Assembly: GCA_027064515.1 (NCBI GenBank)
Contig: JAMOPL010000120.1
Span: forward strand, 1 to 35,030
DNA length: 35,030 nucleotides
Direction of reading: 5' to 3'
Source: Sulfurimonas sp.
Lineage (GTDB): Bacteria > Campylobacterota > Campylobacteria > Campylobacterales > Sulfurimonadaceae
Numbering within the stretch: the first letter of the stretch is position 1; every line of letters starts with the position of its first letter. The notes under the pieces were generated by a model. It searched no databases. It had not been told where the DNA came from and saw nothing but the letters and a program-made list of their open reading frames with translations. The position numbers were made by a program, and so were the translations under genes. Of this stretch, positions 2,897 through 34,187 are shown in pieces.

Positions 2897-3922
2897 TTAA
2901 ACAATATAAATATCTTTTTCTTTTTTAGTAATAATACTACCTATGATACTGCTATATTCATAACCACTATCAATAAGTTCAGTTAATAAATTGTTTGCAT
3001 CTTTTTCTTTTACTGATATTAAGAGTCCTCCTGAAGTTTGGGCATCATAAAATAATATATCATCTTTTTTATTAGAACATACAGTTTTTGGACTTAAATA
3101 TGCTTTGTTATTGTAAGTTCCCGCAGGGATTATTCCCATATCTGCCATATCTTTTGCTTCTTTTAAAAATGGGATATTATCATAAACAAATTTTATAGAT
3201 AAATCTTTATCTTTTATCATCTCAAAACTATGCCCAGCAAGACCGAAACCAGTTATATCTGTAACTGCACTTACATCATATTTTTGCATAATTTTTGAAG
3301 CATTATAATTAAGTTGTGCCAAAATATTAGAAACTTTTTTTATAGTTATTTTATCTAGCATATCTGCTTTTATAGCAGTAGTTAATATGCCCATACCAAG
3401 TGGTTTTGTTAATATTAAAACATCATCTATTCTTACAGTATTATTTCTATAAAATTTATTAGGATTAATAACTCCTGTAACACTAAGTCCATAAAGCATC
3501 TCTGGGGTTTCAATAGTGTGTCCACCAACTAGTTTGGCTCCACACTCATTTATCTTATCTAATCCACCTGATAATATTTCATTTAATATCTCTTTTGAAT
3601 GATTACAACCATCAAATCCTACAATATTAAGTGCAGTTTTCGCTTTGGCTCCCATAGCAAATATATCACTAAGAGAATTTGCTGCTGCTATTTGCCCATA
3701 AATAAATGGATCATCTACAACAGGGGTAATAAAATCTAATGTTTGGACTAATGCCATATCATCATTAATCTTAAAAATACTAGCATCATCACTTGTATCA
3801 AGTCCTACTAAAATATTTGCATCGCTACTTGCTAATCCACTAAGTGCTATGTTTAGATCGCCCGGATCTAACTTAGCAGCTCAACCAGCAGCTTTTACAA
3901 ATTTTGTTAATTTCGCATCCAT
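2897..3922 (-). CDS. selD: Selenide, water dikinase SelD, a selenoprotein with Sec14
   Basis: SelD makes selenophosphate from selenide and ATP, the selenium donor for SelA. The ORF track starts at 3757, but the real start is ATG 3922: an AGGA ribosome site sits just upstream, and the frame reads MDAKLTKFVKAAG, then UGA (3883-3881), then AAKLDPGDL, the family's N-terminal active-site region. The UGA falls where E. coli SelD has its catalytic Cys17, and a perfect 7-bp hairpin follows it, so it is read as selenocysteine at residue 14. Total length is 341 residues, normal for the family. Downstream motifs include 'TDITGFGLAGHSFEM' and 'DAQTSGGLL'. It is the last gene of a leftward transglutaminase-yedF-dsrE-selD operon. 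Confidence 0.95.
3853..3883 (-). promoter_or_regulatory. selD UGA codon with bacterial SECIS-like hairpin
   Basis: After the UGA (3883-3881) and nine more bases, TTAGATC pairs perfectly with GATCTAA (7 bp, 3871-3865 and 3859-3853) around the loop CGGGC. The loop starts 16 bases after the UGA and holds G residues, in the position where SelB binds bacterial SECIS elements. The stem lies wholly inside coding sequence. Confidence 0.8.
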
Positions 3923-3929
3923 TGTTATC

Positions 3930-4286
3930 CTAAAAAGTTAAAACTTTATCGCACTCTTCTACCCAAGAGGCTAATTTTCCCATAGTAGATTTGATACTAT
4001 CATCAAAATACGGCTGATCTTTAAACAATCCACATCTTGCTTGACAGCTTCCACAAACTTGTAGTTCAATCCCTTTTTCAAATAATTCTTTTAACATTTG
4101 AACTAAATCTACATCATATTGTTCTGGTTTTTTGTTGCATTCTCTTGCTAAATCAACAGAATCATTCATTAAAAATATTTTTACTTCATTGTCATTTTCA
4201 AATAATTTTTGTGCAAGTCTTAATCCATTGTAAGCTACATCACTTCCATCATATGGTTGATGATTAAATATAATTAAAATTTTCAT
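3930..4286 (-). CDS. DsrE-family sulfur/selenium-relay protein
   Basis: A soluble 118-residue protein starting MKILIIFNHQPYDGSD, typical of the DsrE/YchN fold, with helix 'AYNGLRLAQKL' and strand 'EVKIFLMNDSVDLA'. Near residue 78 it has 'CGSCQARCG', a three-Cys cluster where DsrE-like proteins carry the persulfide-accepting cysteine. In this position, between yedF and selD, it probably handles reduced sulfur or selenium on its way to SelD; that role is inferred from context. An AAGGA ribosome site precedes the ATG. Its stop overlaps the ribosome site of selD, suggesting coupled translation. It has no transmembrane segment or signal peptide. Confidence 0.8.
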   Translation of the reverse strand: MKILIIFNHQPYDGSDVAYNGLRLAQKLFENDNEVKIFLMNDSVDLARECNKKPEQYDVDLVQMLKELFEKGIELQVCGSCQARCGLFKDQPYFDDSIKSTMGKLASWVEECDKVLTF

Positions 4287-4297
4287 TTTTTATCCTT

Positions 4298-4900
4298 TTA
4301 TAATGTTGTTGTTTGTGTATGCAGAAGCATATCCATACTATCATAGGCATTTCCTATTTCACCTACTTGTAGTTCTTGTGTATCTATTTTATAAAAATTC
4401 ATACAAAGACCGCAACTATATATATTAACACCTCTATTTTCAAACTCTTTTAAAATCTCTATTGTTGTTTGATTTTTAGTCGTTAAAAAAACACCTTTAT
4501 TTACCAAAATAATATTTTTTGGCAACTCTTTAAACTCTAATGTTGTTTTTAAAAAACCTTCCATTAAAATGTTACCAAGCTCACCATCTCCTACTTTATC
4601 ATCTTTGATAAATATAGTTTTATCTAAAAACTTATTTTCTTGTGAAGTTCCCACGATATTACACTCATATCCTTTTATAATAATAATTTTTGTAATATTA
4701 TCTTCTAATTCTTCAATTTCATAACTATAGCCATTGTTTGTAGCATATCTTTTAATATTTTCAACTGACGAAGTTGCATTAACTAAAACCTCTAAAATTG
4801 AATCATTCTCTAAGCTCTCTAAAGCTTTTTTTGTATCCAGCACCGGTTTTGGACAATCTTGATTACAACAATTAATTTGCACTGTTTTACCTCTTTTCAT
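4298..4900 (-). CDS. yedF: Selenium metabolism protein YedF (TusA/SirA-like plus DsrE-like domains)
   Basis: The 200-residue protein has two domains. Residues about 5-75 form a TusA/SirA-like domain with the signature 'CPKPVLDTKKAL', whose Cys accepts sulfur or selenium as a persulfide. Residues about 95-195 form a DsrE-like domain with 'GVNIYSCGLCMNFYKI'. This architecture is the selenium-associated YedF family, found almost only in genomes that make selenocysteine; the exact reaction is not established, and selenium delivery to SelD is the usual proposal. ATG 4900 follows the stop of the transglutaminase gene directly (TAGATG). An internal GTG at codon 7 has its own AGAGGT ribosome site and is an alternative start. 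It lies 11 bases before the dsrE gene. Confidence 0.9.
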   Translation of the reverse strand: MKRGKTVQINCCNQDCPKPVLDTKKALESLENDSILEVLVNATSSVENIKRYATNNGYSYEIEELEDNITKIIIIKGYECNIVGTSQENKFLDKTIFIKDDKVGDGELGNILMEGFLKTTLEFKELPKNIILVNKGVFLTTKNQTTIEILKEFENRGVNIYSCGLCMNFYKIDTQELQVGEIGNAYDSMDMLLHTQTTTL

Positions 4901-6013
4901 CTATTTTACCTCATTTGATATTATTAAAAAAGAAAATGAACTTGGATCATAATAATCTAATGTTTTATTAGCAACTTCACCATAAGGATAACCAAACATA
5001 TTTAATGGATATTTTACTGTTTTTGGATAAAGTTCAAAATCTCTAGCATAATTAAAACCAATCCAATTCATCTCCCAAGAATGCAAATATTTTTCATTTA
5101 ATTCTTGAACTCTTTTATCTGAATATTGTAAATTTTCTACTAACTCAAGTTTTGTTATATCAGCAGGATCACAAGGTATCCATCCAATTCCAGGAATATA
5201 ATACTCGACTCTACAGTGTTGCCATGAAGAGATATTAGCCATTCCATTTTTACTTGTTCCAAGTGCATGAGAAAAATTACTTTTACCTAGTCGTATCCCA
5301 AACACTTCCCGTGCAGGTGTGCCTGAAGCTCGAACTAATGCAGTAAATAAAGAACTAAGATCAGTACATTTACCACCATAATAACCATTAGTATAAATTT
5401 TCTCTATCTCTTCATCTTTTACCATTTGTCCAACATCTCCAGTCCCACAACCGACAACATTTTTATCTCTAAAGGTATGTGAAGTGCACCAAAAATATAT
5501 AGCTTTTACTTTTTCAAATCTATCTTTTTTACCTCTTGTAATTCTATTGGCTAAAGCTTTTATAATACCTGTAGTAGGTATATGATTTGTTGATTTTAAA
5601 AAGGGCTCTACCTCTTTTGGTATAGATAAATTTTTATAACTTGCTTTTTGTATATCTTTTATATTAACTGTTCTAAAAGATGTCTGCACTTGCATAGATA
5701 TCTCTATATGATTATTTTTTATATTTTTATCCCATTTGCTAAATAAAGTTAATGCATCATATTTATTTTGTCTAGTTAAAAAGACTTTTTTATAATTACC
5801 AGCATAATGTAAATATTTTACTTCTTGGTAACTTGAATTATATGGCATAGGATTCCATAATTTCACTGGATACTTGTTGTCATTATTTTTGATATCAAAT
5901 ATATATTTAATATCAAAAGTTCTTATATTTTTATCTTTTGAAAATAGTATCGTTGGAGATATAGCTATAAGACTAAGTGCTGAACCAAATTTAAAAAAAT
6001 CTCTTCTTTTCAT
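4901..6013 (-). CDS. Tat-exported transglutaminase-like protein
   Basis: The ORF track starts at 6043, but ATG 6013 has a proper AAGGA site and begins MKRRDFFKFGSALSLIAIS, a twin-arginine leader; the longer start has none. The mature protein of about 340 residues contains a transglutaminase core near residues 205-285: 'GGKCTDLSSLFTALVRASG' supplies the nucleophilic Cys, 'SSWQHCRVEYY' the His and 'GWIPCDPAD' the Asp. Such domains are usually peptidases or amidases, rarely true transglutaminases. Export by Tat suggests a cofactor or folding before transport, or simply shared targeting with FdhA. It is the first gene of the selD operon, and its link to selenium is unexplained. Family confident, substrate unknown. 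Confidence 0.85.
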   Translation of the reverse strand: MKRRDFFKFGSALSLIAISPTILFSKDKNIRTFDIKYIFDIKNNDNKYPVKLWNPMPYNSSYQEVKYLHYAGNYKKVFLTRQNKYDALTLFSKWDKNIKNNHIEISMQVQTSFRTVNIKDIQKASYKNLSIPKEVEPFLKSTNHIPTTGIIKALANRITRGKKDRFEKVKAIYFWCTSHTFRDKNVVGCGTGDVGQMVKDEEIEKIYTNGYYGGKCTDLSSLFTALVRASGTPAREVFGIRLGKSNFSHALGTSKNGMANISSWQHCRVEYYIPGIGWIPCDPADITKLELVENLQYSDKRVQELNEKYLHSWEMNWIGFNYARDFELYPKTVKYPLNMFGYPYGEVANKTLDYYDPSSFSFLIISNEVK

Positions 6014-6140
6014 TGTAAATCCTTTTTTTAATGAGGATGACAAATAATTACAGCTTCGTAAAAAAATTATTGTCTGCCTAAACCTTAGGCCTAATTACAT
6101 TTATATATAAGAGTTTAACATTATTTATATAAAATTTTAC

Positions 6141-6146
6141 TATAAT
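6141..6146 (+). promoter_or_regulatory. -10 box of the selA-selB operon
   Basis: TATAAT at 6141-6146 has a TTAACA (6115-6120) upstream with a 20-base spacer, rather long. It overlaps the ATG at 6145 used by the ORF track, which therefore would not be transcribed; this supports ATG 6181 as the selA start. The divergent selD operon begins 130 bases away. A small hairpin GCCTAA/TTAGGC (6076-6090) lies between the two promoters. Confidence 0.5.
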
Positions 6147-6180
6147 GGTAAATAAAATTTTACTAAAATATGGGAAAAAT

Positions 6181-7515
6181 ATGGAATTATTGAGAAAATT
6201 ACCAAAAATAGATAAATTAATAGAAGAAAATCTTTTTAAAGATTGTTCAAACAAATTAGTAATAAAAATTGCAAAAATGAAAGTTGAAAACTTAAGATTA
6301 GATATATTAAATGGGAACATATCTGATTTTTCTTATGATGATTTGATTAAAAATATAAAAAAAGAGTATGAACAAATTTTAGCTTCATCTTTAATTCCAC
6401 TTATAAATGCAACAGGTGTGATTCTTCATACAAATATGGGAAGGAGTTTGATATCTCAAGAGATACTAGATAGGGCATCTAAGAATATTGTAAATTATTC
6501 AAATTTAGAATATGATTTGCAAAAAGGTTGTAGAGGCGAGAGATATGAGCATGTAAGTAAACATTTTAAATCACTTCTTGGAGTTGAAGATATTTTGATT
6601 GTAAATAATAATGCTAGTGCTGTATTTCTTATACTAAATACTTTTGCTAAAGAAAAAGAAGCTATAGTTTCAAGAGGAGAGCTAGTTGAGATTGGTGGAA
6701 GTTTTAGAATACCGGAAGTTATGAAAAATAGTGGTGCTATTTTATGTGAAGTTGGAGCTACAAATAAAACAAAACTAAAAGATTATGAAGAAAATATCAA
6801 TGAGAATACAGCAATGCTTATGAAAGTGCATAAATCAAACTATACCATTGAAGGATTTAGTGATGAAGTTGACTTTAAAGATATTAAACAATTATCTCAA
6901 AAGCATAATCTGCTTGATTATTATGATTTAGGAAGTGGTTATATTCCAAAATTACCTTATAATTTAAGCGCTTATGAACCAACGATTGATGATATACTAA
7001 AACATAATCCATCGTTGATAAGTTTTAGTGGTGATAAACTTTTTGGTAGTGTTCAAGCAGGTATTATTGCAGGGAAAAAAGAGCTTATTGATAAGCTAAA
7101 ACAAAATCAACTTTTAAGAATGTTAAGAGTTGATAAGATTACTTTAAGTATTCTTGAAGAGACAATAAAGGCATATCTTGAAGAAAATTATCAAGATATT
7201 CCTACACTAAATATGCTTTTTGTAAATCTAAAAGAGCTAGAAGACAGAGCAAATAAAGTTATAGAAGAGGTTGGAGATGGTATATGTAAATTAGTAAAGA
7301 CTACAACATATATGGGTGGAGGAACTTTACCAAATAAAACATTTCCATCTGTTGCTATTTCTATAAAAGGTAAAGCGAATAAATTAGAAAAAGAGTTTAG
7401 AAAAAGTAATATTATTGGAAGAATTGAAAATGATAAGTTTTTACTCGATTTTAGAACAATTTTACCTCAAGATGACAAACAAATGATAATTAGTATTAAA
7501 GAAATAATACTATGA
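6181..7515 (+). CDS. selA: L-seryl-tRNA(Sec) selenium transferase SelA
   Basis: SelA is the PLP enzyme that turns Ser-tRNA-Sec into Sec-tRNA-Sec with selenophosphate. The chosen ATG gives MELLRKLPKIDKL, the usual family N-terminus; the longer start at 6145 sits inside the promoter. The result is 444 residues, normal length. Visible motifs are 'INATGVILHTNMGRS' (about residue 75), 'VNNNASAVFLIL' and 'LISFSGDKLFGSVQAG', whose Lys (about residue 286) binds PLP. The ribosome site is weak (GGGA). The stop overlaps the start of selB (ATGA), so the enzyme and its elongation factor are co-translated. Confidence 0.97.
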   Translation: MELLRKLPKIDKLIEENLFKDCSNKLVIKIAKMKVENLRLDILNGNISDFSYDDLIKNIKKEYEQILASSLIPLINATGVILHTNMGRSLISQEILDRASKNIVNYSNLEYDLQKGCRGERYEHVSKHFKSLLGVEDILIVNNNASAVFLILNTFAKEKEAIVSRGELVEIGGSFRIPEVMKNSGAILCEVGATNKTKLKDYEENINENTAMLMKVHKSNYTIEGFSDEVDFKDIKQLSQKHNLLDYYDLGSGYIPKLPYNLSAYEPTIDDILKHNPSLISFSGDKLFGSVQAGIIAGKKELIDKLKQNQLLRMLRVDKITLSILEETIKAYLEENYQDIPTLNMLFVNLKELEDRANKVIEEVGDGICKLVKTTTYMGGGTLPNKTFPSVAISIKGKANKLEKEFRKSNIIGRIENDKFLLDFRTILPQDDKQMIISIKEIIL

Positions 7516-9335
7516 AAAATATAGTTATAGGAACAGCAGGTCATATAGACCACGGTAAAACATCTCTTATCAAAGCATTAAATGGTTTTGAAGGAGATAG
7601 TACAAAACAAGAAAAACAAAGAGGTATCACTATAGATCTTAGTTTTTCATATATGCAAAACAACGATACAAATATAGCTTTTATAGATGTACCTGGGCAT
7701 GAAAAACTTGTAAAAAATATGATTTCTGGTGCTTTTGGTTTTGATGCAGCATTAGTATTAATAGATGCAAAAGAGGGAATTAAGCCTCAGACAATTGAGC
7801 ATCTGGAGATACTTAATTTTTTAGAGATAAGAAATATTATTATAGCACTCAGTAAAGCTGATTTAGTAGATAAAGATACTGTTAAATATCAAAAAGATAA
7901 TATTTCAGAGTTTATAAAAAGATTTAAAAATCTAAATTTAAAGAATATAATACCTGTTTCAATTTATGATAACAATTCAATAGAGTTATTAAAAGAACAG
8001 CTTTTTTCTTTAACTAAAGTTGAAAAAAGATCAAATGGCATTTTTAGATATTATGTAGATAGAAGTTTTTCAATATCTGGAGCTGGTAGAGTCGTAACTG
8101 GAACTGTTTTGGACGGAAATATTTCATTGCAAGATAAAATTATAGTTGCAGGATATAATAAAGAAATAAAAATAAAAAATATTCAAGTACATGAAAAAGA
8201 TGTAGATGAAGCTTTAGTATCTCAAAGAGTAGCTATAAATTTACAAAATCCAAAAATAGATATAAAAAAAGGAGATCTTCTTACAAAAAAAGGTTTTATT
8301 AGGGGATTTACAACTATAGATGTATCTATAAATATTTTATCTGATCACAATATAAAACACAATAGTACTTTGGTCTTTTTTATGGGAACAAAACAACTAA
8401 ATGTTAAAGTGTTGTTTTTAGATCCAAATCAACAATTTGCAAAGATAGAATTTAATCAAGAGATATATAGTGTTTATAATGAACCATTTATACTAAGTCA
8501 ATCAGGTAGTGTAATAGCAGGTGGTAGAGTACTAAATCCTATAAATGATCCTATTAAGAAAAAAAATAAACTTATACTACTAGAAGCTTTAAAACAAAAA
8601 GATTTTATCAAGGCTTTTGAACTTCTTGTTGCTATTCATAAAAAAGGCTTTGGATTAATATCATCGAATCAAAGATTCGGATTAAACCATAAGAAAGCCA
8701 TTGAGATAGCATCAAAAATAAATAATATTTTTGTAGATGAAGATGAGCTTGTATTATATCCAAATACTACAATAACTTTAATAGAAAATATTATTTTGGA
8801 TATATATAAGAAAAACGGTTTTGCATTATTATCCTCCAAATCATTAAATTTAAAAATAAAATGGGCAAGTTTAAAATTGATAGATACAGCATTGCAAAAC
8901 TTACTACAAAAAAATTTGATTGTATTTGAAAATGGAGTTTATAAAAATCCAGATTGTAATATAGAAAATATAGATAAGTTTATGCAAGATAAACTTTTAG
9001 ATATATTAAATTCAGATAATATAATGCCAAAAGCTCCTTATAATATATATGATGATTTAGACATAGATAGACAAATGGGGGATAAAGCACTAAAAAAATT
9101 AACATCATCTAAACAAGTTGTAAGGTTAGAACATAATTTATTTATAAGTTATGAAAAATTAAATATATTAATAAGAGAATTAAAAAATATTATCAGAAAA
9201 GAAAGCTTTATAGATATAAACATATTTAAACGGCATTATCCTAATCTTTCAAGAAAATATATAATTGCATATTTAGAGTATTTAGATAAACAAAATGATA
9301 TAATACAAGATGGACTTAAAAGAAAATTATCTTAA
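7512..9335 (+). CDS. selB: Selenocysteine-specific elongation factor SelB
   Basis: SelB is the EF-Tu-like GTPase that carries Sec-tRNA-Sec to UGA codons marked by a SECIS hairpin. The 607-residue protein opens with the P-loop 'GTAGHIDHGKTS', then the switch region 'EKQRGITIDLSF', 'DVPGHEKLV' (G3) and 'ALSKADLVD' (G4). EF-Tu-like domains 2 and 3 follow ('SISGAGRVVTGTV'). The C-terminal third is lysine- and isoleucine-rich with helix-turn-helix-like blocks, fitting the SECIS-binding winged helices; the last ends 'YIIAYLEYLDKQNDIIQDG'. Length matches bacterial SelB. It overlaps selA by 4 bases and is followed after 15 bases by a small gene. Confidence 0.97.
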   Translation: MKNIVIGTAGHIDHGKTSLIKALNGFEGDSTKQEKQRGITIDLSFSYMQNNDTNIAFIDVPGHEKLVKNMISGAFGFDAALVLIDAKEGIKPQTIEHLEILNFLEIRNIIIALSKADLVDKDTVKYQKDNISEFIKRFKNLNLKNIIPVSIYDNNSIELLKEQLFSLTKVEKRSNGIFRYYVDRSFSISGAGRVVTGTVLDGNISLQDKIIVAGYNKEIKIKNIQVHEKDVDEALVSQRVAINLQNPKIDIKKGDLLTKKGFIRGFTTIDVSINILSDHNIKHNSTLVFFMGTKQLNVKVLFLDPNQQFAKIEFNQEIYSVYNEPFILSQSGSVIAGGRVLNPINDPIKKKNKLILLEALKQKDFIKAFELLVAIHKKGFGLISSNQRFGLNHKKAIEIASKINNIFVDEDELVLYPNTTITLIENIILDIYKKNGFALLSSKSLNLKIKWASLKLIDTALQNLLQKNLIVFENGVYKNPDCNIENIDKFMQDKLLDILNSDNIMPKAPYNIYDDLDIDRQMGDKALKKLTSSKQVVRLEHNLFISYEKLNILIRELKNIIRKESFIDINIFKRHYPNLSRKYIIAYLEYLDKQNDIIQDGLKRKLS

Positions 9336-9350
9336 ATACGAGGAAAATAA

Positions 9351-9659
9351 ATGAAATTAGTTGTCACAGCAGACGGAGGTTTTATGACTTCCAAATTTTG
9401 TCCTAATTTTGAAGAGGCTGAATATTTAATTGTCTATGATATTGAAGATAAATTTTATGGTGCCAGAAAATCTCCTTCATTTCAAACAAAAAATAAAGTT
9501 ACATTAATTGATTTTTTAAAAAAAACTTTTATGACACATATAGTTACAGGAAAAGAGATTGAAGATAACTATTTTAATGTATATATACCTAAAAAGTTAG
9601 ATGCTACAGTAGAAGAAGTATTACAAGAGAGTATTGCTGCATTGAATAAAATCATCTAA
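9351..9659 (+). CDS. Small protein after selB, NifX/NifB-C-like at most
   Basis: A 102-residue soluble protein with a good ribosome site (GAGG, 8 bases before the ATG). It begins MKLVVTADGGFMTSKFCPNF, which recalls the first strand of the NifX/dinitrogenase-cofactor fold ('kIAVtsdgg..vs.hFg.a'), followed by 'AEYLIVYDIEDKF', also as in that fold. The later part ('HIVTGKEIEDNYFNVYIP') does not match any motif I know well. Cys17 is the only cysteine. Its place in the selA-selB operon suggests a job in selenium or metal-cofactor handling. The family call is weak; it could be an uncharacterised small family kept with selenium genes. Confidence 0.7.
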   Translation: MKLVVTADGGFMTSKFCPNFEEAEYLIVYDIEDKFYGARKSPSFQTKNKVTLIDFLKKTFMTHIVTGKEIEDNYFNVYIPKKLDATVEEVLQESIAALNKII

Positions 9660-9665
9660 TACAAA

Positions 9666-13060: not shown

Positions 13061-13070
13061 TTATATTTAC

Positions 13071-15818: not shown

Positions 15819-15832
15819 AAAATCCCTTTATA

Positions 15833-15882
15833 TATGTAAATTTTGCATATTTCTATTATTTAAAATATGCAAAATTTGCATA
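15833..15882. promoter_or_regulatory. Twin 17-bp palindromic operators before fdhD
   Basis: TATGCAAAATTTGCATA (15866-15882) is a perfect odd palindrome. TATGTAAATTTTGCATA (15833-15849) is the same with one mismatch. Their centres are 33 bp apart, three helical turns, so a dimeric or tetrameric regulator could bind both on one face. They lie 15-65 bases before the fdhD start, at the expected promoter. The ModE-like protein of the same operon is the obvious candidate binder (inference). Confidence 0.7.
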
Positions 15883-15898
15883 ATTATTGTTATAAAAA

Positions 15899-15927
15899 TT
15901 TAACCTACTAAAAAATAGTAGATTAAA
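15899..15927 (-). terminator. Rho-independent terminator after fdhC
   Basis: Read leftward, TTTAATCTACTA pairs with TAGTAGGTTAAA (12 bp including one G-U) around a 5-base loop, followed by TTTTT. It lies 19 bases after the fdhC stop and separates the fdh operon from the fdhD promoter. Confidence 0.85.
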
Positions 15928-15945
15928 TCTTATATATTAAAAAAG

Positions 15946-16842: not shown

Positions 16843-16852
16843 TATTTATCCT

Positions 16853-17449: not shown

Positions 17450-17459
17450 CTCTCACCCC

Positions 17460-20291
17460 CTACGCTTTTTCTATGCGGCATAATCCGCCTTTAGTTTCAG
17501 GTAACTGAGTGATGATATCATAACCATAGTTTGTAACAGTATTTGCACTCTCACCAACAGCATAAGGTTCTGTTCCCTCAGGATAGTTTCCTGTTCTATC
17601 TTCACCCTGAAAGAATCCAGCAAAGTGAAATGGTATAAATACCCTATCTTCACCTACACTGTAAGAGTAGTGAGCTTTAACCTTTATCTTAGTGCCTTCC
17701 GGTGAATGAATCCACATCATGTCTCCATTCCTAATGCCGTGATTTGCAGCCAGATTTGGATTTATGTCACAGAACATTTCAGGAGTAAGAGCAGATAGAT
17801 ATTTACTAGCTCTCGTTTCAAGTCCGGCACCACTCATATTTACAAGTCGCGCTGTAATCAAATTGATAGGGAATTCTTTGCTCCAATTTTCTTTGTTTTG
17901 AACACTTGCATATTTCGTATCCACTCTATAGTGATTTGGCTTATCTTTATAGGTTGGATATTTCTTAACCAAATCTTCTCTTGGTGAGTGAATTGGCTCT
18001 CTGTGCATAGGAATCTGATCAGGGAATGTCCATACTTTTGCCCTTGCTTTTGCATTTCCATAAGGTGCAATTCCTCTTTCCATACATTTTTGGGCAATTA
18101 TATTACTTGTATCAACTTTCCAGTTTTTACCAATTCTTTTTTTCTCACTTGCAGTTAATTTAATACCAAGGACTTCTTCAATATTGTCTGCTGTAATTTC
18201 AGGGTAACCATCTGGATTTGCTGAATCTTTTGGTGCTGAATTTTTACCTGCTAATAAACTTACTCCATCATGCTCAAGACCAAATCTATTTCTAAATCCC
18301 ATACCACCTTCTTTTACACTTCTATTTATATCGTATAAAATAGGGCTTCCACTATGTGTTTCAGTCCATACAGGCCATGGTAATCCATAATATTCACCTT
18401 TAACTGGTCCAATTCCTCTAAGACTTACTTCATCAAATAGATGCCAATTATCAGTATGGAATTTTAATCTTTTAGATGTCCAACCAGTTAAACCGATAGT
18501 TTTAATAATTCTTGCAATTTCATCTGTTGCATCTTCAGGAAATTTAAAAGATTTTTTATTTTCTTTTATTAACATACCTTTTGTATATTCTTCATAAAAA
18601 CCTAATCTTTTTGCAAGTTCAAACATAATTTCATGATCTGGCTTACTTTCATACATAGGTTCTACTACTTTATATCTCCATTGAGCTGAACGATTTGTAG
18701 CAGTAACTGAACCACTAGACTCAAATTGAGTAGCAGCTGGAAGTATAAATACATCATCTTTTTTATCTGTTAACATTGCAGCTTCATTTACAAATGGATC
18801 TGCTAATACTATTAACTCTAAATTATCTAATGCTTCTTTTACTTTGGCTTGTTGTGCAATTGATGTAATACCATTACCCATTACAAATAATGCTTTTAAG
18901 TTTGTCCCTGCATTATCTATCTTATCTTCACCTGGTCTTCCAGCTAACACACCTGAATACCATTTTGCTAAAGTAAATCCTTTTGCATTCATCCATTTTT
19001 TAGATTTAAATCTTCCTTTAAGCCATTCATAGTCAACTCCCCAAGATTTTGCAAAGTATTTCCAAGAACCATCTTTAAGTCCGTAGTATCCTGGTAGAGT
19101 ATGCGATAAACAACACATATCCGTTGCACCTTGAACATTATCATGACCTCTTAAGATATTACATCCACCACCTTCTACTCCCATATTTCCTAAACATAGT
19201 TGTAAAATTGGAGCCATTCTTGTATTTGATGAACCAATTGAGTGTTGAGTAAGTCCCATAGCCCATATTAAAGTACCTGGAGTAGATTTTGCATAAACTC
19301 TAGTTATTTGCATAAGTAATTCTTCAGATACCCCTGTAACATCAGCTACTTTTTTAGGATTCCATTTTTTTGCTTCTTTTTTAATATCTTCTACACCATA
19401 AACTCTATCGTTGATAAAGTTCTTATCTTCCCATCCATTTTTAAATATAATATGTAGCATACCATACATAAATGGAATATCAGTTCCTGGTCTAATTTGT
19501 GCAAAATAATCAGCTTTTGCAGCTGTTTTTGTCATTCGCGGATCAACTACAATTATCTGAGCATTATTTCTTTCTTTTGCTTTTAAGAAATGTCCAAAAC
19601 CAACTGGATGGTTTACTGCTGGATTTGCTCCAAATATAATAATAGCTTTCGCATTTTGGATATCTCCAAGTGAGTTTGTCATAGCGCCATAACCCCATGT
19701 ATTCGCCACACCGGCGACTGTTGCACTATGTCAAATTCTAGCTTGATGATCTATATTGTTTGTCCCATACATTGCAGCAAATTTTCTAAAATAATATGCT
19801 TGCTCTGTACTCATTTTTGCTGAACCTAAAAAGATTGTACTGTCTGGTCCGCTTGTTTCTCTTAAACTATTCAATTTTTTTGAAATTCGATCATAAGCTG
19901 TATCCCAACTGATTCGCTTCCACTGACCATTTTCTTTTACCATTGGATATTTAAGTCTTGCTTCTGATCTAACCATATCGATCATATCAGCACCTTTACA
20001 ACAATGTCCACCTTTACTAATTGGATGGTCTTGTGCTACTTCTTGTCTTACCCATACACCATTTTGAACCTCTGCTGTAATTCCACAACCTACTGAACAT
20101 GAAGTACATATTGTTCTTACTTTTTTAGATCCAGGAAATGGGTTTTTTACCTCTTCTTCCGTTGCTGCTCTTGTTACATTTCCACTAGCAATTGCACTAG
20201 TAGCTCCAAACGCGCCTGCAATTGCAGCCATTTTTAGAAATGAACGACGACCCACCTTGGTCGATAGAGCATCTTTTGTATTTGTATTCAT
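17460..20291 (-). CDS. fdhA: Periplasmic selenocysteine formate dehydrogenase, catalytic subunit (Sec187)
   Basis: FdhA oxidises formate to CO2 at a W/Mo bis-pterin centre. The ORF track splits it into 19731-20291 and 17460-19709 at an in-frame UGA (19733-19731). Joined, it is 943 residues with selenocysteine at 187 in 'NIDHQARI-U-HSATVAGVANTWGYG', exactly where the family places the catalytic residue. The N-terminus is a Tat leader ('GRRSFLKMAAIAG'). A [4Fe-4S] motif follows: 'CTSCSVGCG' with 'GHCCKG'. Bases after the UGA fold as a SECIS hairpin. The last 600 bases are clearly richer in GC than the middle of the gene (see findings). The Mo/W operon next door supplies its cofactor. Confidence 0.97.
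19703..19733 (-). promoter_or_regulatory. fdhA UGA codon with bacterial SECIS hairpin
   Basis: After the UGA (19733-19731), TCGCC (19717-19713) pairs with GGCGA (19707-19703) around the loop GGTGT. The loop begins 18 bases after the UGA and contains a GU, the SelB-recognised feature of E. coli fdhF and fdnG SECIS elements. Confidence 0.85.
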
Positions 20292-20322
20292 ACTTTAGAA
20301 TCTCCTTTATAATTTATTTAAT

Positions 20323-20523
20323 TTATACAGCTGAACTGTAAAAATCTTCCCAAGCTTTTGTTTTTTTGTAAGTTATCTCTTTTTTAGGTGAATGACCTAC
20401 AACAACACCGTTTGAACTATATGGCTTTTTATTTCCACTTGCTAATGCACCAACAGCACCAACAGTTACTGCTGCGGCACCAACACCCATAAGCTTTTTT
20501 AAAAAGCCTCGTCTATTTTCCAT
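20323..20523 (-). CDS. Small Tat-signal protein of formate dehydrogenase regions
   Basis: A 66-residue protein with a twin-arginine leader (MENRRGFLKKLMGVGAAAVTVGAVG) and a short mature part ending 'TKAWEDFYSSAV'. This matches the small 'formate dehydrogenase region Tat target' family that nearly always lies just before fdhA in Campylobacterota and relatives. It has no cofactor motif; a role in assembly or export of FdhAB is proposed for the family but not shown. It lies 31 bases before fdhA and downstream of the hairpins at 20571-20621, so those would control it together with fdhABC. Confidence 0.85.
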   Translation of the reverse strand: MENRRGFLKKLMGVGAAAVTVGAVGALASGNKKPYSSNGVVVGHSPKKEITYKKTKAWEDFYSSAV

Positions 20524-20570
20524 AATAAGCTCCCCTTTTCATAAATTTACCTTATAAATACATAATTTAA

Positions 20571-20621
20571 AAGGCTACATAAAATAACTACTATTATCTT
20601 ATGTAGCCTTTAGGGCTACAT
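20571..20621 (-). terminator. Two mutually exclusive hairpins between the torD-like gene and fdh (attenuator-like)
   Basis: In the leftward transcript, segment 1 (20621-20614, ATGTAGCC) can pair with segment 2 (20608-20601, GGCTACAT) over a 5-base loop, or segment 2 can pair with segment 3 (20580-20573). The 2-3 hairpin extends to 12 bp and is followed by TTTT, so it looks like a terminator. Segment 1 includes the stop codon of the torD-like gene. Confidence 0.65.
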
Positions 20622-21401
20622 CTCACTTAAACCATTCTCATCTTCAAAATAATCATCTTCTAAAGCACAACTTTGCATTACAGATTCAGCTGCTTTATTA
20701 AGTCTGTTCTGTGCCCTTCTTTTTTCTTCTTCTGTACTTATAAATGTACAAGATTCTTGCGATTTTTTTCTATCTGTCTCTTTTGGTTTTGGTTTTTTTA
20801 CATCAAAATATAATCGTTCAAATTCCATAAATGCATTAAGTACTATAGCCAATGACTTATATACGTTTGATTTATCATGTTCGTATAATTCAATTATAAA
20901 TTGATCTATAAATTCATTAATAACTTCTGCAAATAAACAATGTTGTAAGGTTTCATATGAAGTTTCACCTTGGATAATAAGTTCTACTAATTCATACATA
21001 AAAGTAACTAAAAAACTAACACTATCTTCTGTTTCTTTAAATACTTTTTCATTTCTTCTTATTCTAGTTTTTCCTAAAAAATTTCGAACTTCTAATGTTT
21101 TTTTACCACTTTCAAATCCTTCTTCATAAAATGAAGCTGTAGTTCTTATATTTTTTGTTACAGGATTATGAAAAATTTCATCGTATTCTTTTATTAATAA
21201 TTCTTTTCCACCAATATTTAAAAACTCTTTGATCTCTTTTAATGCTTCACAAGAGTTCTCATCTAATGGATTTTGTATCAAAATATCAATTATCTCTATT
21301 ACATTTGCAAATCTATCTTCAGATTCAGTAAAAACCAACATTTGACTTAGTAAGCCATAATATAATGATCTTGCTGGATTTATATCATCTTGTTTTTTCA
21401 T
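20616..21401 (-). CDS. TorD-like chaperone for formate dehydrogenase
   Basis: A 261-residue soluble helical protein of the TorD/DmsD family. These proteins bind the Tat leader of molybdoenzymes and help cofactor insertion. 'ARSLYYGLLSQMLVF' at the N-terminus, 'LLIKEYDEIFHNP' and 'TTASFYEEGFESGK' are the usual blocks, including the 'Y..lF..P' and 'S.Y..e' patterns. After about residue 200 there is a charged, low-complexity tail ('KPKPKETDRKKSQES') and an acidic end, longer than in TorD itself but seen in the Campylobacterota fdh version. It starts 2 bases after the ferredoxin-type gene and its likely client is FdhA. Confidence 0.85.
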   Translation of the reverse strand: MKKQDDINPARSLYYGLLSQMLVFTESEDRFANVIEIIDILIQNPLDENSCEALKEIKEFLNIGGKELLIKEYDEIFHNPVTKNIRTTASFYEEGFESGKKTLEVRNFLGKTRIRRNEKVFKETEDSVSFLVTFMYELVELIIQGETSYETLQHCLFAEVINEFIDQFIIELYEHDKSNVYKSLAIVLNAFMEFERLYFDVKKPKPKETDRKKSQESCTFISTEEEKRRAQNRLNKAAESVMQSCALEDDYFEDENGLSEM

Positions 21402-21403
21402 TT

Positions 21404-23089
21404 TTAACCCTTTATTTCATTTTGTTTATTTAAATATTCTTGTAAAGTTACTTTTGGTTTACAATCAGCACAACAATATAATGCTCTTATTCTTGCTTTA
21501 TCATCTCCAAATCTAGGTGCCATTATACTTGCAATTTTTTCTATAGATTTTACTGTGGCAAATTCAATTCCGCATTCAACACACTTAAATAACTCATCTT
21601 TAGCCATAATATTTTTTATGAAATATTTTTTATTTAATTCTATCTCATCGTATATAACCTCCAAACAATCTTTTTCTGGACAGATAAATTCACAATATCC
21701 ACAGTCAGTACAAAGAGATGGATTAAATCTTAAACTATTATCCTCAGGGTGAGCAGTAAGGGCTTTAACATTACAAGCACCAACACATGCTAAACATAAA
21801 GTACAATTTGATTCTTTTATTTTTATATTTCCATAATGAATATGCTCACCAGTTTTTATAATACCTAAATCATCATCTCCCACTAAATGAAATAATCTAT
21901 AAGTAAAGATTTCTCTTTTATCTAAATCTTGGTCATAATGATTAAATTTACACTCGCTTAAATCTTCTAAATTATTTTGAGCATCTATAAGCTCTTCTTC
22001 ATCCATACAGACATATATTGCCTTTTTATTATATTTTCTTTGAAAAATTTCATTAATTAATGTAATTGCATCTCCTGTTCCTTTAGAGATAAAATCTGTA
22101 TAAAATATTATTGGTTTACCACTTGTTTGAAGTAATATTAAAAAATGCACTTCATCTAAAAATTTTCTACCTTCTATAGCCAAAGGTAAAATATTTTTTT
22201 CTAAAGATGGATGAAAATTATCATTTATTAGTTGTTCTGGTATTACTAAGGCTACAGTATCTTCATAAAATGAAGCGATTTGAGAGAATAAACTTCTAGG
22301 CATTTGAGTAAAATCTAATGCACCAGATGGGCATACACTTACACATCCTCCACATCCATGACAATCAATATTTGAAAATTCTAAATGTTTTTGTTCATCT
22401 ATTTTCATAATTGCCACAGTTGGGCATACATCAGCACATTTCCCACAAATTTCTGTCTGTCTTTCATGGTATTGGCATATATCAGGATTATACTTTATAT
22501 AATTTTTATATTTATATTCAGGGATATTATTTTTAATTGTATCTAATATATTTTCTATATCTTCAATATTTGGATCATATACGCCATTTTGTTTAGTTGC
22601 AAAATATGGCGCATCAAACCATATCATTTGATCTGTTTGCAAAGAGATATTATCTTCATTTTTTTTAATGGTTATTTTTAAATTCCCAATATGACCATCT
22701 ACATCCAATATATCTGTTGGCTTAAATATAAATAAGTCAAATTCATTTTCATTTAATTTTGATATTATCGAATCTATCTCTAATTTATTATCTGAAATAA
22801 TAAATAGTTTTTTACCAACTTCCTGACTATAATCAAGATCCAAAGAAGAATCATATTTTTCAAGTCTTATATCATAAAGTTTTTTTATATTAGTTATTTT
22901 ATTACTAATATCATCTTTTGTATTATCAATATACATATTTATTTCTGGTGCATAAATTAAAGAGTGTTTACTTTTGCAATTTGAAATTAAATACTCAGAA
23001 GATAAGTTTAAGTTATCTACAATATGGATTGATTCATCTAATGGAAAGTCTAATGGTGAGTCGTTATAAAATAAATAAGCTTGTTTCAT
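21404..23089 (-). CDS. Multi-[4Fe-4S] ferredoxin-type protein of the fdh operon
   Basis: A 561-residue protein without signal peptide. The first 195 residues have no motif I recognise. Then come ferredoxin-like clusters: 'CGKCADVCP', 'CHGCGGCVSVCP', and after a second linker domain 'CTLCLACVGAC' and 'CTDCGYCEFICPEKDC'. The C-terminus has two CxxC pairs ('CVEC', 'CADC') around 'IASIMAPRFGDDKARIRALYC', possibly a zinc or extra Fe-S site. Proteins like this accompany fdh operons in Campylobacterota. It is cytoplasmic, so it may be an electron carrier for a cytoplasmic process or an assembly factor. It is the first gene of the leftward fdh operon, behind a 9-bp inverted repeat. Confidence 0.85.
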   Translation of the reverse strand: MKQAYLFYNDSPLDFPLDESIHIVDNLNLSSEYLISNCKSKHSLIYAPEINMYIDNTKDDISNKITNIKKLYDIRLEKYDSSLDLDYSQEVGKKLFIISDNKLEIDSIISKLNENEFDLFIFKPTDILDVDGHIGNLKITIKKNEDNISLQTDQMIWFDAPYFATKQNGVYDPNIEDIENILDTIKNNIPEYKYKNYIKYNPDICQYHERQTEICGKCADVCPTVAIMKIDEQKHLEFSNIDCHGCGGCVSVCPSGALDFTQMPRSLFSQIASFYEDTVALVIPEQLINDNFHPSLEKNILPLAIEGRKFLDEVHFLILLQTSGKPIIFYTDFISKGTGDAITLINEIFQRKYNKKAIYVCMDEEELIDAQNNLEDLSECKFNHYDQDLDKREIFTYRLFHLVGDDDLGIIKTGEHIHYGNIKIKESNCTLCLACVGACNVKALTAHPEDNSLRFNPSLCTDCGYCEFICPEKDCLEVIYDEIELNKKYFIKNIMAKDELFKCVECGIEFATVKSIEKIASIMAPRFGDDKARIRALYCCADCKPKVTLQEYLNKQNEIKG

Positions 23090-23097
23090 TCTTTTCC

Positions 23098-23121
23098 TTT
23101 GGTAAAAGACTGTTTACCAAA
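23098..23121. promoter_or_regulatory. 9-bp inverted repeat next to the ribosome site of the ferredoxin-type gene
   Basis: TTTGGTAAA (23098-23106) and TTTACCAAA (23113-23121) are perfect inverted repeats with a 6-base spacer. The left arm ends beside the AAAGGA ribosome site of the first fdh operon gene (start 23089). It may be an operator or an RNA hairpin that limits translation. Confidence 0.6.
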
Positions 23122-23175
23122 TTTTAGTCCTTTATAACTTAATTATTACTGAATAGTAAAACAAAACTCATTTCT

Positions 23176-23194
23176 TACAATATTGTAGTATAAT
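23176..23194 (+). promoter_or_regulatory. Promoter of the binding protein/kinase/regulator operon with adjacent palindrome
   Basis: TATAAT at 23189-23194 lies 27 bases before the GTG start at 23222. Directly upstream is the 12-bp palindrome TACAATATTGTA (23176-23187), which takes the place of a spacer and may bind a regulator. No good -35 box is seen, which is common in Campylobacterota. Confidence 0.5.
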
Positions 23195-23221
23195 AAACAA
23201 ACAAATATTAAAGAGGTTGGT

Positions 23222-24373
23222 GTGAAAAAGGTTGTTTTTCTTTGCGTAGTAATAGTTATTTCTTTATATTTCTTTATATCTAAAAAATCAGATTATAAAG
23301 AGATAATATTTGGCTCTTCCCTTTCTATTCAAGGAACAAATAAGCAATTAGGGAATGAGGTTGTAGAAGGTATAAATACGTATTTCAAATATATAAACGA
23401 TAATAATGGTATTAAAAATAAAAGTATAAAATTTATATATTATGATGACAAATACGAGCCACAAAACACTCTTGTAAATACTAAAAAATTAATAAAGAAT
23501 AAAAATCTTTTTGGATTACTTGGATATATAGGAACTCCAACAGTTAAAAAGATTTTACCTATTATTGGAGATATTCCATTTATAGCACCATACACAGGTG
23601 CTTCTTTTTTAAGAACAACTACAAAAACAAATATTATAAATCTTAGAAGTTCATACAAAGAAGAGATAGAAAGTATTGTTAACTATTTATATGATAGTAA
23701 ACATATAAGAAGATTTGCAATATTTTATCAAAATGATGATTATGGAATAGATAATTACAATGCCATTGTAGAAGCATTAAATAAAAAAAATTTAAAACTC
23801 ACCGGAGAAGGGACATATAAAAGAAATACTTTATCTATTAAACATGCCTTATTAGAGATAAAAAAGACAAATCCACAAGCTATAATACTTGCAGGCGCTT
23901 ACAAACCAAGTGCAATTTTTATAAAACATGTAAGAGAAAATTTTACAAATAATGTTATATTTGTACCTATATCTTTTGTAAATGCAAATGCACTAATAAA
24001 AGAATTAGATTATAAAGGCATAAATATAATTTTTTCACAAACAGTTCCTTCTTATACTAATAAAAATTTATTAATCGCGCAAGAATATTTAGAATTATTA
24101 CAAAAATATTATCCAAATTCTAAGCCATCATTTGCATCCTTTGAAGGATTTATTTCTGCTAAAATTGTAGTAAGAGCTTTAAGAAATATCAAAGGTGATA
24201 TAACTCAAGATAAATTTTTAAATAACTTAAAAAATTTTAGAGATTTAGATTTAGATGGCATTACAATAAATTATAAAAATAATCAATTATTAAATCAAGT
24301 TTATTTACTATATTTTAAAAATAAAAAATTTTATCAAATAAATGGAAAAAAGAGCAATGATAATTGCATATAA
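23222..24373 (+). CDS. Periplasmic ligand-binding protein of the branched-chain amino acid type (sensor partner)
   Basis: The protein has 383 residues, a GTG start and a good AGAGG ribosome site. An N-terminal hydrophobic segment (residues about 4-18) anchors or exports it. The body matches the type I periplasmic-binding fold (LivJ/AmiC-like, peripl_BP_6): 'FGSSLSIQGTNKQLGNEVVEGI' at the start, 'GLLGYIGTPTVKKILPII', 'FAIFYQNDDYGIDNYNAIVEAL' and 'PQAIILAGAYKPSAIFIKH'. No ABC permease or ATPase of this type is nearby. Its gene runs straight into a histidine kinase gene, so it probably presents a ligand to the kinase, as in other sensor systems with a detached binding protein. Ligand unknown; formate or a related acid is a guess from context. 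Confidence 0.8.
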   Translation: MKKVVFLCVVIVISLYFFISKKSDYKEIIFGSSLSIQGTNKQLGNEVVEGINTYFKYINDNNGIKNKSIKFIYYDDKYEPQNTLVNTKKLIKNKNLFGLLGYIGTPTVKKILPIIGDIPFIAPYTGASFLRTTTKTNIINLRSSYKEEIESIVNYLYDSKHIRRFAIFYQNDDYGIDNYNAIVEALNKKNLKLTGEGTYKRNTLSIKHALLEIKKTNPQAIILAGAYKPSAIFIKHVRENFTNNVIFVPISFVNANALIKELDYKGINIIFSQTVPSYTNKNLLIAQEYLELLQKYYPNSKPSFASFEGFISAKIVVRALRNIKGDITQDKFLNNLKNFRDLDLDGITINYKNNQLLNQVYLLYFKNKKFYQINGKKSNDNCI

Positions 24374-25970
24374 TAAAATAAACCTATTTTTAAATAAATT
24401 AAAATTTAATAGCAAAACAAAAATACTAATATCAATCACAATACTAAGTATGATAATGATTATTTTTTTTATGTTTATTTCTATATTTGCTATTAAATAT
24501 GACTATGAGAATTTATATCATAAAACTACAACTTCACAAATCAATCTTGAACAAATAAAAGATATTTATACTGTAAATTTCTATGATACATTGTATGATG
24601 TAACACAAAAAAATATAAATAAAGATGATGCCATAGAAGTAATAAAATTAGCAAAACAGCTTGTACAAATAAGATGGGAAAAATATAATGCTTCAATTAA
24701 CTATAAAATAGGAGGAATTTCTCAGTTCGCAACTAATTGGTTAGATTTTTTTCTCTTTAGGGATCAAAAACAAATAAAAAGTTTTTATCAAGATAGTTTA
24801 AATAAAAAAATTATTATTAAAATTAACAAGATTAATAATACAGCCGATAAAATTATATACTGTCTAAACAAAAATGAATATAATTTAGCTAATAAATTTA
24901 TAGATGAGATATTTTTAGATATTAAGTCTATAAATATCTCATTGTCTAGTTTAATTAATTATTCTTTAAATAAGGCTATAGAAGAAAAAAACAAAAATGA
25001 TACAATGTTTAATACAAGTATTTTCATGTTGATATTACTTATTGGTTTCACATTTTTTTTAAGTATTTTAATATCATTTACTATTATAAATCACTTTAAA
25101 GAGCTACATAACTCTTTAGAAGATAAGGTATTTCAAAAAACAAAGGAATTGAGAGTTTTAAATAGTTCTTTAGAAGTTAAAATTAAAAAAGAGATAGAAA
25201 ATAGTCGTAAAAAAGATCAAATTATGTTTCAACAAGCAAAATTAGCTAGCATGGGAGAGATGTTACAAAACATTGCTCATCAATGGAGACAACCTCTTGG
25301 TGCAATTATGATGATAATACAAAGTTTTCAAACAAAATTTTATGCTGGAAAATTAAATGAAGAATTTATAGAATCACGAGTAAATGATGCTTTTACTTTA
25401 TCTAAAAATATGTCAGCAACACTAGAAGATTTTCAAACATATTTTAATCCACATAAAATAAGAAAACAATTTTATCTAAAAGGTGTTATTGAAAAATCTA
25501 TACAACTTAGTAAATATCAATTAACAAAAGAAAATATACAGATAAAAATAGATATTAAGCATGATGTTAAAATATATAGCTATGAAAATGAACTTACACA
25601 TATCCTTTTAAACTTAATTAATAATTCAAAAGATGCATTCGTAAATAAGCATATTAACAATAAAACAATATTAATAATTGTAAAAGAGAATCAAGAGTTT
25701 ATTATTATAAACTTTATTGATAATGCAGGTGGAATTAAAGAGGATATAATACAAAAGATATTTGAACCATATTTTACAACTAAACACCAAAGTGTAGGTA
25801 CAGGAATAGGCTTATATATGTCAAAACAAATTATAGAAAAACATATAAAAGGTAAAATAATGTATAAAAATATAAAATATAAAATAGATTCAACAAAAGA
25901 AATACTAGATAAATGTGCTATGTTTGTTTTAGAGATACCAAAAAAATATAAGGATGCGAATCATGAATAA
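24342..25970 (+). CDS. Membrane sensor histidine kinase
   Basis: A 542-residue kinase with one membrane helix near residues 30-50, a periplasmic helical region of about 180 residues, a second helix near 225-250, then a coiled coil ('LEDKVFQKTKELRVLNSSLE'). The phospho-acceptor His is in 'MGEMLQNIAHQWRQPLGAI', the form common in Campylobacterota. The ATP-binding domain shows the N box 'HILLNLINNSKDAF', G1 'IDNAGGIKEDI', F box 'IFEPYFTTK' and G2 'GTGIGLYMSK'. The first 32 bases overlap the binding protein gene; an ATG at 24357 is an equally possible start. The response regulator gene overlaps its 3' end. Confidence 0.9.
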   Translation: MEKRAMIIAYNKINLFLNKLKFNSKTKILISITILSMIMIIFFMFISIFAIKYDYENLYHKTTTSQINLEQIKDIYTVNFYDTLYDVTQKNINKDDAIEVIKLAKQLVQIRWEKYNASINYKIGGISQFATNWLDFFLFRDQKQIKSFYQDSLNKKIIIKINKINNTADKIIYCLNKNEYNLANKFIDEIFLDIKSINISLSSLINYSLNKAIEEKNKNDTMFNTSIFMLILLIGFTFFLSILISFTIINHFKELHNSLEDKVFQKTKELRVLNSSLEVKIKKEIENSRKKDQIMFQQAKLASMGEMLQNIAHQWRQPLGAIMMIIQSFQTKFYAGKLNEEFIESRVNDAFTLSKNMSATLEDFQTYFNPHKIRKQFYLKGVIEKSIQLSKYQLTKENIQIKIDIKHDVKIYSYENELTHILLNLINNSKDAFVNKHINNKTILIIVKENQEFIIINFIDNAGGIKEDIIQKIFEPYFTTKHQSVGTGIGLYMSKQIIEKHIKGKIMYKNIKYKIDSTKEILDKCAMFVLEIPKKYKDANHE

Positions 25971-26619
25971 AAAAGATTTTGATATATTGAATAATTTTAA
26001 TATATTGTATATTGAAGATGAAGAGGATTTATTAAAGCACACCACATCTGTTTTAGAAGATTTTGCCAAAAATATTTATGCTGTTAAAACTTGCAAAGAT
26101 GCTATTGAAATATTACATAATAATCATGTAGATGTAATTATTTCTGATATATTACTTAAAAATGAAAGTGGTATAGACTGTTTAAAACAAATAAGAGATG
26201 AGCTTAATTTGGATATTCCAGCTATACTGGTTACTGCACATACAAATAAAGAATTTTTAATGGATGCAATTGAGCTTAAAATTGAGAAATATATAATTAA
26301 ACCAATAAGCATAAAAGAGTTAATAAATACACTACATGATATATTTTTACCAAAATTAAAACAAAAGGAAATAGATCAAGCAAATAATATTATTAAATTA
26401 ATATCAATAGTAACAGATGGAAAACAAGTTGAACTTATTAATTTTATTATAAACAATTTAGATAATGAAAATATGTTAAATTATTCATATAATAATATTA
26501 TGGAACATATAGATATAAGCAAGCCAACAATTATAAAAATATTTAAACAGCTTTTGGATCGAGAAATCTTAGTAAAAATTCAAAATGGAAAATATTATTT
26601 TAACGAAAAAAATCTATAA
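25954..26619 (+). CDS. Response regulator with C-terminal winged-helix-like segment
   Basis: The 221-residue protein has a receiver domain (about 10-130): acidic pair in 'YIEDEED', phospho-acceptor Asp in 'VDVIISDILLKNESG', Thr in 'ILVTAHT' and Lys in 'KYIIKPIS'. The remaining 90 residues do not look like OmpR, NarL or NtrC output domains. Near the end 'HIDISKPTIIKIFKQLLDREILVKIQNGKYYF' resembles the recognition helix and wing of a small MarR/Crp-like HTH, so it probably binds DNA. It overlaps the kinase gene by 17 bases. Likely targets are the fdh or sel operons, by position only. Confidence 0.88.
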   Translation: MRIMNKKDFDILNNFNILYIEDEEDLLKHTTSVLEDFAKNIYAVKTCKDAIEILHNNHVDVIISDILLKNESGIDCLKQIRDELNLDIPAILVTAHTNKEFLMDAIELKIEKYIIKPISIKELINTLHDIFLPKLKQKEIDQANNIIKLISIVTDGKQVELINFIINNLDNENMLNYSYNNIMEHIDISKPTIIKIFKQLLDREILVKIQNGKYYFNEKNL

Positions 26620-26650
26620 TACACTTATGCTAGATTTTATATTATTTAGA

Positions 26651-26656
26651 TACAAT
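26651..26656 (+). promoter_or_regulatory. -10 box of selC
   Basis: TACAAT at 26651-26656 lies 14 bases before the tRNA, giving a start a few bases before the mature 5' end. No clear -35 box is visible. The tRNA may also be made from read-through of the response regulator transcript, whose stop is at 26619. Confidence 0.45.
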
Positions 26657-26670
26657 TCTTTGACTTACAT

Positions 26671-26768
26671 GGGAGGTATATGACCCTGGTGGGCATCACG
26701 GGCTTCAACCCCGATGTTTGGATAGTTGACTATCCAAAGGGAGGTTCGATTCCTTCACCTTCTCGCCA
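26671..26768 (+). tRNA. selC: tRNA-Sec (UCA anticodon)
   Basis: The 98-base gene has the anticodon loop CTTCAAC (anticodon TCA at 26705-26707), which reads UGA. The variable arm is a perfect 9-bp stem, TTTGGATAG/CTATCCAAA, with loop TTGA, diagnostic of tRNA-Sec. The T arm is regular (GGAGG, TTCGATT, CCTTC) and CCA is encoded (26766-26768), with discriminator G. The D stem looks like six pairs with a 4-base loop. The acceptor arm is odd: 5' GGGAGGT pairs with 3' ACCTTCTC for six positions including two G-U pairs, then needs a bulge. It is the tRNA that SelA and SelB of this window act on. Confidence 0.92.
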
Positions 26769-34148: not shown

Positions 34149-34187
34149 TTTTCCCGCTCTCCCCTTAACTATTTTCATAGTCTCATA

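Follow-up and report, generated by a model that had tools for sequence, protein, structure and literature searches.

A selenocysteine-decoding system and its formate dehydrogenase in one probably horizontally acquired block of a Sulfurimonas contig

Introduction

The transfer of clustered sel genes together with fdhA was described in 2006 for Pseudomonadales and other Proteobacteria, along with the proposal that transfer needs clustered sel genes and a co-transferred selenoprotein, most often fdhA (Zhang et al., PMC1794560). Transferred sel genes that include a selenocysteine (Sec)-type SelD are known from Photobacterium profundum (Romero et al. 2005, PMC1273633), and the 21-kb plasmids of Terrisporobacter (pTG1; 2023) carry selA, selB, selC and selD with proline reductase (PMC10564238). 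Further cases of sel transfer were published in 2016 (PMC5029168), and the Sec systems of Campylobacterota have been treated in a study of 2015 (PMC4607533).

The window analyzed here, 35,030 nucleotides long, comprises the entire contig C120 from a Sulfurimonas sp. draft genome (G000; 1.85 Mb, 166 contigs, 80% complete, 2% contamination), in which positions 2897-26764 are occupied by selD, selA, selB, the tRNA-Sec gene, yedF, a formate dehydrogenase operon and cofactor genes. As in the selA-selB-selC-fdhA cluster of 2006, the Sec machinery stands beside a single respiratory substrate and its tree is not vertical; the block in the window differs in adding selD (itself a selenoprotein gene), yedF, tungstate import, moeA, fdhD, a chaperone and a sensing module, and in that its likely donor and recipient belong to one order. 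The Terrisporobacter plasmids also combine the Sec machinery with the Sec enzyme that uses it, but they do so on a separate replicon with replication genes, in Clostridia and with a different substrate enzyme. The P. profundum system shares with the window a Sec-containing SelD beside transferred selAB, whereas it serves glycine reductases rather than formate dehydrogenase and involves inter-phylum transfer.

The co-transfer of sel genes and fdhA is thus already known and this block is a clear new example of it; with the idea itself dating from 2006, what the window adds is not another class but one well-resolved case and a candidate for a new gene. A genetic-code extension would here have travelled together with its dependent enzyme in unusually complete form: a single insert holds the decoding machinery, two selenoprotein genes, cofactor supply and a sensing module, its edges are pinned to about ten and about a hundred bases, and relatives without it are available for comparison.

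Gene content of the block

The original prediction, made from the sequence alone, had described an apparently complete Sec system packed in one block with its substrate enzyme, and NCBIfam/Pfam, ARAGORN and Rfam searches bear this out. The genes lie on the minus strand at 2897-6043 and 10363-23089 and on the plus strand at 6145-10379 and 23222-26764, as follows:

2897-3922, minus: selD, selenophosphate synthetase, in-frame UGA (Sec) at 3881-3883, putative start ATG at 3922 (TIGR00476, E 1e-108)
3930-4286, minus: DsrE/TusD-like protein, probable selenium/sulfur carrier (Pfam DsrE, E 2e-20)
4298-4900, minus: yedF, selenium metabolism protein (TIGR03527, 191 bits, cut-off 110)
4901-6043, minus: transglutaminase-core protein (Pfam PF01841; synteny)
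6145-7515, plus: selA, selenocysteine synthase (TIGR00474, 545 bits)
7512-9335, plus: selB, Sec-specific elongation factor (TIGR00475, 284 bits)
9351-9659, plus: 102-aa protein without family assignment, weakly NifX/FeMo-co-domain-like (PF02579, E 0.065, below cut-off)
9666-10379, plus: 237-aa protein (unkB), no name, conserved after selB in G082, G279 and G425
10363-13060, minus: wtpB, wtpC, wtpA, tungstate/molybdate ABC importer
13071-14306, minus: moeA-like molybdenum insertase
14306-15034, minus: ModE-like regulator
15027-15818, minus: fdhD, sulfurtransferase for formate dehydrogenase (NF001943 and TIGR00129)
15946-16842, minus: fdhC, cytochrome b subunit (TIGR01583, 221 bits)
16853-17449, minus: fdhB, FDH3-type iron-sulfur subunit (NF038355, 339 bits)
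17460-20291, minus: fdhA, Tat-signal formate dehydrogenase alpha subunit, UGA (Sec) at 19731-19733
19688-19733, minus: SECIS-like element directly 3' of the fdhA UGA (UCGCC-GGUGU-GGCGA)
20323-20523, minus: formate-dehydrogenase-region small Tat protein (TIGR02811, E 2e-4, below cut-off)
20616-21401, minus: TorD/DmsD-like chaperone (PF02613)
21404-23089, minus: 561-aa 4Fe-4S protein of fdh/sel clusters (family searches; synteny)
23222-26619, plus: sensing module of periplasmic binding protein, histidine kinase and response regulator (Sulfurospirillum-type genomes have the same order ahead of selA)
26671-26764, plus: selC, tRNA-Sec, anticodon TCA, the final block element (ARAGORN; Rfam RF01852 above gathering score)

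SelD, YedF, SelA, SelB, WtpA, FdhD, FdhC (gamma) and FdhB (FDH3 beta) were matched above the NCBIfam/Pfam cut-offs, while curated cut-offs were not reached for WtpB/C, MoeA, ModE and the TorD-like protein, nor for FdhA and DsrE with NCBIfam, although each of these assignments is the best hit. The quartet of Sec-decoding genes selA, selB, selC and selD is therefore complete by family and tRNA searches. In the proposed pathway, selenophosphate would come from SelD, YedF and the DsrE protein would be likely carriers of selenium, Ser-tRNA-Sec would be converted to Sec-tRNA-Sec by SelA, and SelB would bring the product to the hairpin-marked UGA codons of fdhA and of selD. The host has to provide seryl-tRNA synthetase and the early steps of molybdopterin synthesis, genes for which were not found in the block.

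The set for an FDH3-type respiratory formate dehydrogenase is likewise complete, with alpha, beta and gamma subunits, a Tat signal (GRRSFLKM, read by eye), FdhD and a chaperone. The metal cofactor would be supplied by WtpABC, MoeA and FdhD, FdhA would be exported with the help of its Tat signal and the TorD-like protein, and electrons from formate would pass to quinone through FdhBC. The operon may be switched by the binding protein, kinase and response regulator set, according to whatever signal this set would sense. Two minor observations concern the neighbors of the sel genes: a transglutaminase-core protein is also encoded among sel genes in G051, G082 and Arcobacter L159 (CECT 8985), and in G082 a tRNA-Sec-like stretch, for which ARAGORN gave no call, lies upstream of selA (L145:12860-12917).

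Recoded UGA codons and their hairpins

The designation of selD and fdhA as UGA-containing genes holds. The in-frame UGA of fdhA stands in the context A-R-I-U-H and that of selD in G-U-A-A-K, both at known Sec positions, and the same UGA was present in FdhA homologues wherever the site was covered. Each codon is followed by a SECIS-like hairpin, the loop of which begins 16-18 nt past the UGA and has a G within its first two positions. The fdhA hairpin has the stem UCGCC/GGCGA and the loop GGUGU, and the selD hairpin has its own loop, CGGGC. In 10 of 10 distinct homologues of fdhA, 100% of stem cells are paired, compensatory (two-sided) changes occur at two of the five stem pairs, and no shifted register does as well; the predicted fdhA hairpin is thus supported by compensatory changes in relatives. 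With its four sel genes, in-frame UGAs at Sec sites and SECIS-like hairpins, the block fits the bacterial Sec-decoding trait as far as sequence can define it.

Two genes after selB, left unassigned in the original prediction, fared differently. The 102-aa protein is still without assignment. The 237-aa protein gene, which is still unnamed, occurs downstream of selB in the window, G082, G279 and G425, four genomes from two families, with 57-64% identity and the strongly conserved blocks RGICMAM and RNVLSHNIHA; in the window one small gene separates it from selB. The protein matched no Pfam family and no PDB fold, the search with the unkB model returning nothing significant (best E 0.43). That it has an unrecognized accessory role in Sec decoding or in the handling of selenium, and travels with one SelB sublineage, is a tentative suggestion from its conserved position, and a doubtful one.

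Distribution and phylogeny

Within the genus, 14 of 135 genomes have selA, as compared to 204 of 399 genomes sampled from the whole order, so that, contrary to a block shared by all relatives at this place, most of the genus is without it, including G022, G023 and G027 at the corresponding neighborhood. The trees of SelA, SelB and FdhA are not vertical either. In the SelA tree the window and G082 fall inside a Sulfurospirillum-type clade (support 100/100) with genomes of families f20, f10 and f6, and the SelA of one f20 genome is identical to that of a named Sulfurospirillum record, UBA6810; the SelA proteins of the other 12 carriers in the genus (L130-L141) group with Arcobacter. In the FdhA tree the window adjoins G082 and the family-f20 genomes G355 and G424, and FdhA is 86-89% identical to its counterparts in G082, G424, G355 and L156. 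A single genus clade was rejected by the AU test for SelA (p-AU 2e-4), SelB (1e-23) and FdhA (1e-49), the conflict being judged against the supplied genus and family codes and not a full species tree. Descent of the window and G082 from one acquisition was rejected by SelB (p 0.005) and not by FdhA (p 0.26).

Vertical inheritance with loss was rejected by the AU tests of a single genus clade. The corresponding history, in which the genus ancestor carried a Sec-formate dehydrogenase cluster that most members later lost, might draw on the presence of selA in half of the sampled order and on the loss of the Sec trait documented in Helicobacter (PMC4607533), but it is very improbable, given that the genus carriers do not form one clade for any of the three proteins and that in G032 and G082 the cluster has a different location and gene arrangement. 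On the tree positions, the Arcobacter-type Sec system of the twelve genus members would be an acquisition independent of that in the window, and the trait appears to have been gained at least twice in the genus, from Arcobacter-type and Sulfurospirillum-type lineages. A genus with repeated gains would be a suitable setting in which to study what a host must already have for UGA recoding to be of use.

Because of this distribution, the trees, the composition and the relatives lacking the block, we consider it very likely that the block was acquired horizontally within Campylobacterota, entering a site with the TudS/MFS genes on one side and the operator, RG-protein and SLAC1 genes on the other. 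We infer the direction of transfer as follows: about 24 kb (about 2888-26768) would have come from a lineage that includes Sulfurospirillum-type clusters into a chromosome whose sampled relatives are mostly without the block, bringing the Sec-decoding trait in full (selA, selB, selC, selD), along with a periplasmic, Sec-containing formate dehydrogenase and the genes for its maturation.

Insertion site

The edges of the block can be placed at about 2887-2897 on the left and, on the right, between 26765 and the stop codon of the MFS gene at 26871, in agreement with the extent of 2897-26768 originally proposed. On the left, similarity to relatives extends to about 2887, some ten bases short of the selD stop codon, through a region that fixes this edge:

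2798-2887, no strand assigned: host-side operator/promoter region, conserved in G033, G014, G023 and G045 and more weakly in G022

A pair of GAACATATGTTC-type sites, set 22 bp apart at 2816-2849, lies in it before the Arg/Gly-rich (RG) small gene. In G014, G023, G033, G045, G048 and G022, sites of the GAACATATGTTC type are found ahead of this gene group, and the pair is a putative operator. The RG small gene itself (2540-2767) stands before SLAC1 in the window; in relatives it precedes iron-sulfur ATPase genes.

On the right, the genes for FdhF (cysteine), YraN, the YeeE pair, ALDH and TudS form a conserved neighborhood of the genus. Among the genomes without the block, G023 has the order FdhF-YraN-YeeE-ALDH-TudS, two small genes, operator and RG-rich small gene; G022 has TudS, one small gene, operator and gene1 (leftmost in the window); and in G027 the MFS gene adjoins gene1. 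The bordering genes have the same orientation in all three as in the window. The expectation that the flanking SLAC1 and MFS genes would be found joined in relatives was therefore borne out in part: the bordering genes lie close together where the block is missing, but these sites are near-exact only, and no genome was found with MFS directly beside the RG/SLAC1 genes.

The right flank holds a second formate dehydrogenase-like gene with an active-site cysteine (32079-34178; RVCHSPS). Relatives of its product occur in 133 of the 135 genus genomes, most at 65-90% identity, and the recipient therefore probably already had a selenium-free enzyme of the FdhF type. A PIN-domain-like toxin and antitoxin-like pair, recognized by eye and without an NCBIfam match, lies at the right contig end (34350-35008).

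Composition and assignment of the contig

The block had been described as AT-rich relative to its flanks. Raw GC in 1-kb windows is a poor guide, being 20-31% over most of the block and 31-39% over fdhB/fdhA; as the step is weak at the left and blurred by fdhA/fdhB, third-position GC (GC3) and codon usage were used instead. GC3 separates block genes (0.107-0.177) from flank genes (0.216-0.318) without overlap and changes abruptly at both edges, so that the step survives in this measure. The assigned genome, however, averages 29.3% GC with a GC3 of 0.163 (116 kb sampled), and relative to it the flanks and not the block are the odd part: block genes have codon usage z values of about -1 to +1.5, and most flank genes are 2-5 standard deviations off. 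The composition of the block equals that of the assigned draft genome, and its foreignness is thus not provable from composition alone.

The flank genes for FdhF and ALDH are 89-93% identical to those of the G068/G022 group, and flank genes rank G068, G022, G013, G071 and G020 at the top, whereas the bin's RpoB and MtaB are not particularly close to the G068/G022 group; in addition, the draft genome holds a second FdhF on contig C135 (76%). The contig is probably misbinned and would come from a G068/G022-like species, its binning with an AT-rich genome being explicable by the AT-rich block that makes up most of it. The argument from AT-richness for transfer holds only if the contig is misbinned, which the other evidence suggests.

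The same host-like codon usage of the block and the same affinities of the flanks could also be read the other way round, with the block native to the AT-rich draft genome and G068/G022-like DNA recombined in on both sides. This is unlikely: the left and right flanks would both have to be replaced so as to match and to restore the order seen in relatives, the FdhA, SelA and SelB trees are discordant within the genus either way, and another FdhF in the bin is what would be expected if the contig belonged to a different species. An assembly chimera, in which the sel-fdh cluster of an AT-rich organism was joined to the flanks of another species, would account for the GC3 jump at both edges and might arise in so fragmented and slightly contaminated a draft; it is nonetheless quite unlikely, as the flanks come from one ancestral neighborhood in one orientation, so that two independent false joins at the same locus would be needed, and the edges share no repeat.

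Mobility

Under horizontal acquisition, the means of entry can be considered from the gene content and the block ends. NCBIfam/Pfam searches named no integrase, transposase, recombinase, relaxase or transfer gene in the block, and neither direct or inverted repeats at its ends nor tRNA-based integration were detected beyond chance. The phage collection gave no match, and plasmid matches were all below 60% identity, with no close Campylobacterota carrier. The block thus lacks the recombinase and the att or target-site repeats that define an integrase-bearing mobile element or genomic island. Compact, cargo-like content and a tRNA gene at one edge might be expected of a self-mobile integrative element, but with these searches negative and the tRNA-Sec belonging to the cargo, such a nature for the whole 24-kb block is extremely improbable. 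The code extension had been called portable, a term that applies here to transfer and not to self-mobility, given that neither mobility genes nor boundary repeats were found. Entry by recombination after DNA uptake is possible.

Gene order

The region 10363-26619 is colinear with family-f20 G355 and G486, except for moeA, which is absent from both. Sulfurospirillum-type fdh-sel clusters (G355, G347, G486, L163) share the order wtp-modE-fdhDCBA-TAT-torD-FeS / PBP-HK-RR and have the Sec codon of FdhA at the same place as the window; this part of the block is a standard operon of that type and no new arrangement. In those clusters, however, selA-selB directly follow the response regulator gene, whereas in the window the tRNA-Sec gene stands there and selAB lie at the opposite end, beside yedF-DsrE-selD. 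The selD-DsrE-yedF-transglutaminase part resembles G051, a member of another family, in which it is located downstream of selAB. By gene order, the block looks like a mosaic of known modules, and the difference in nearest relatives between the selD-yedF-transglutaminase part and the fdh part counts against a single transfer of a finished block.
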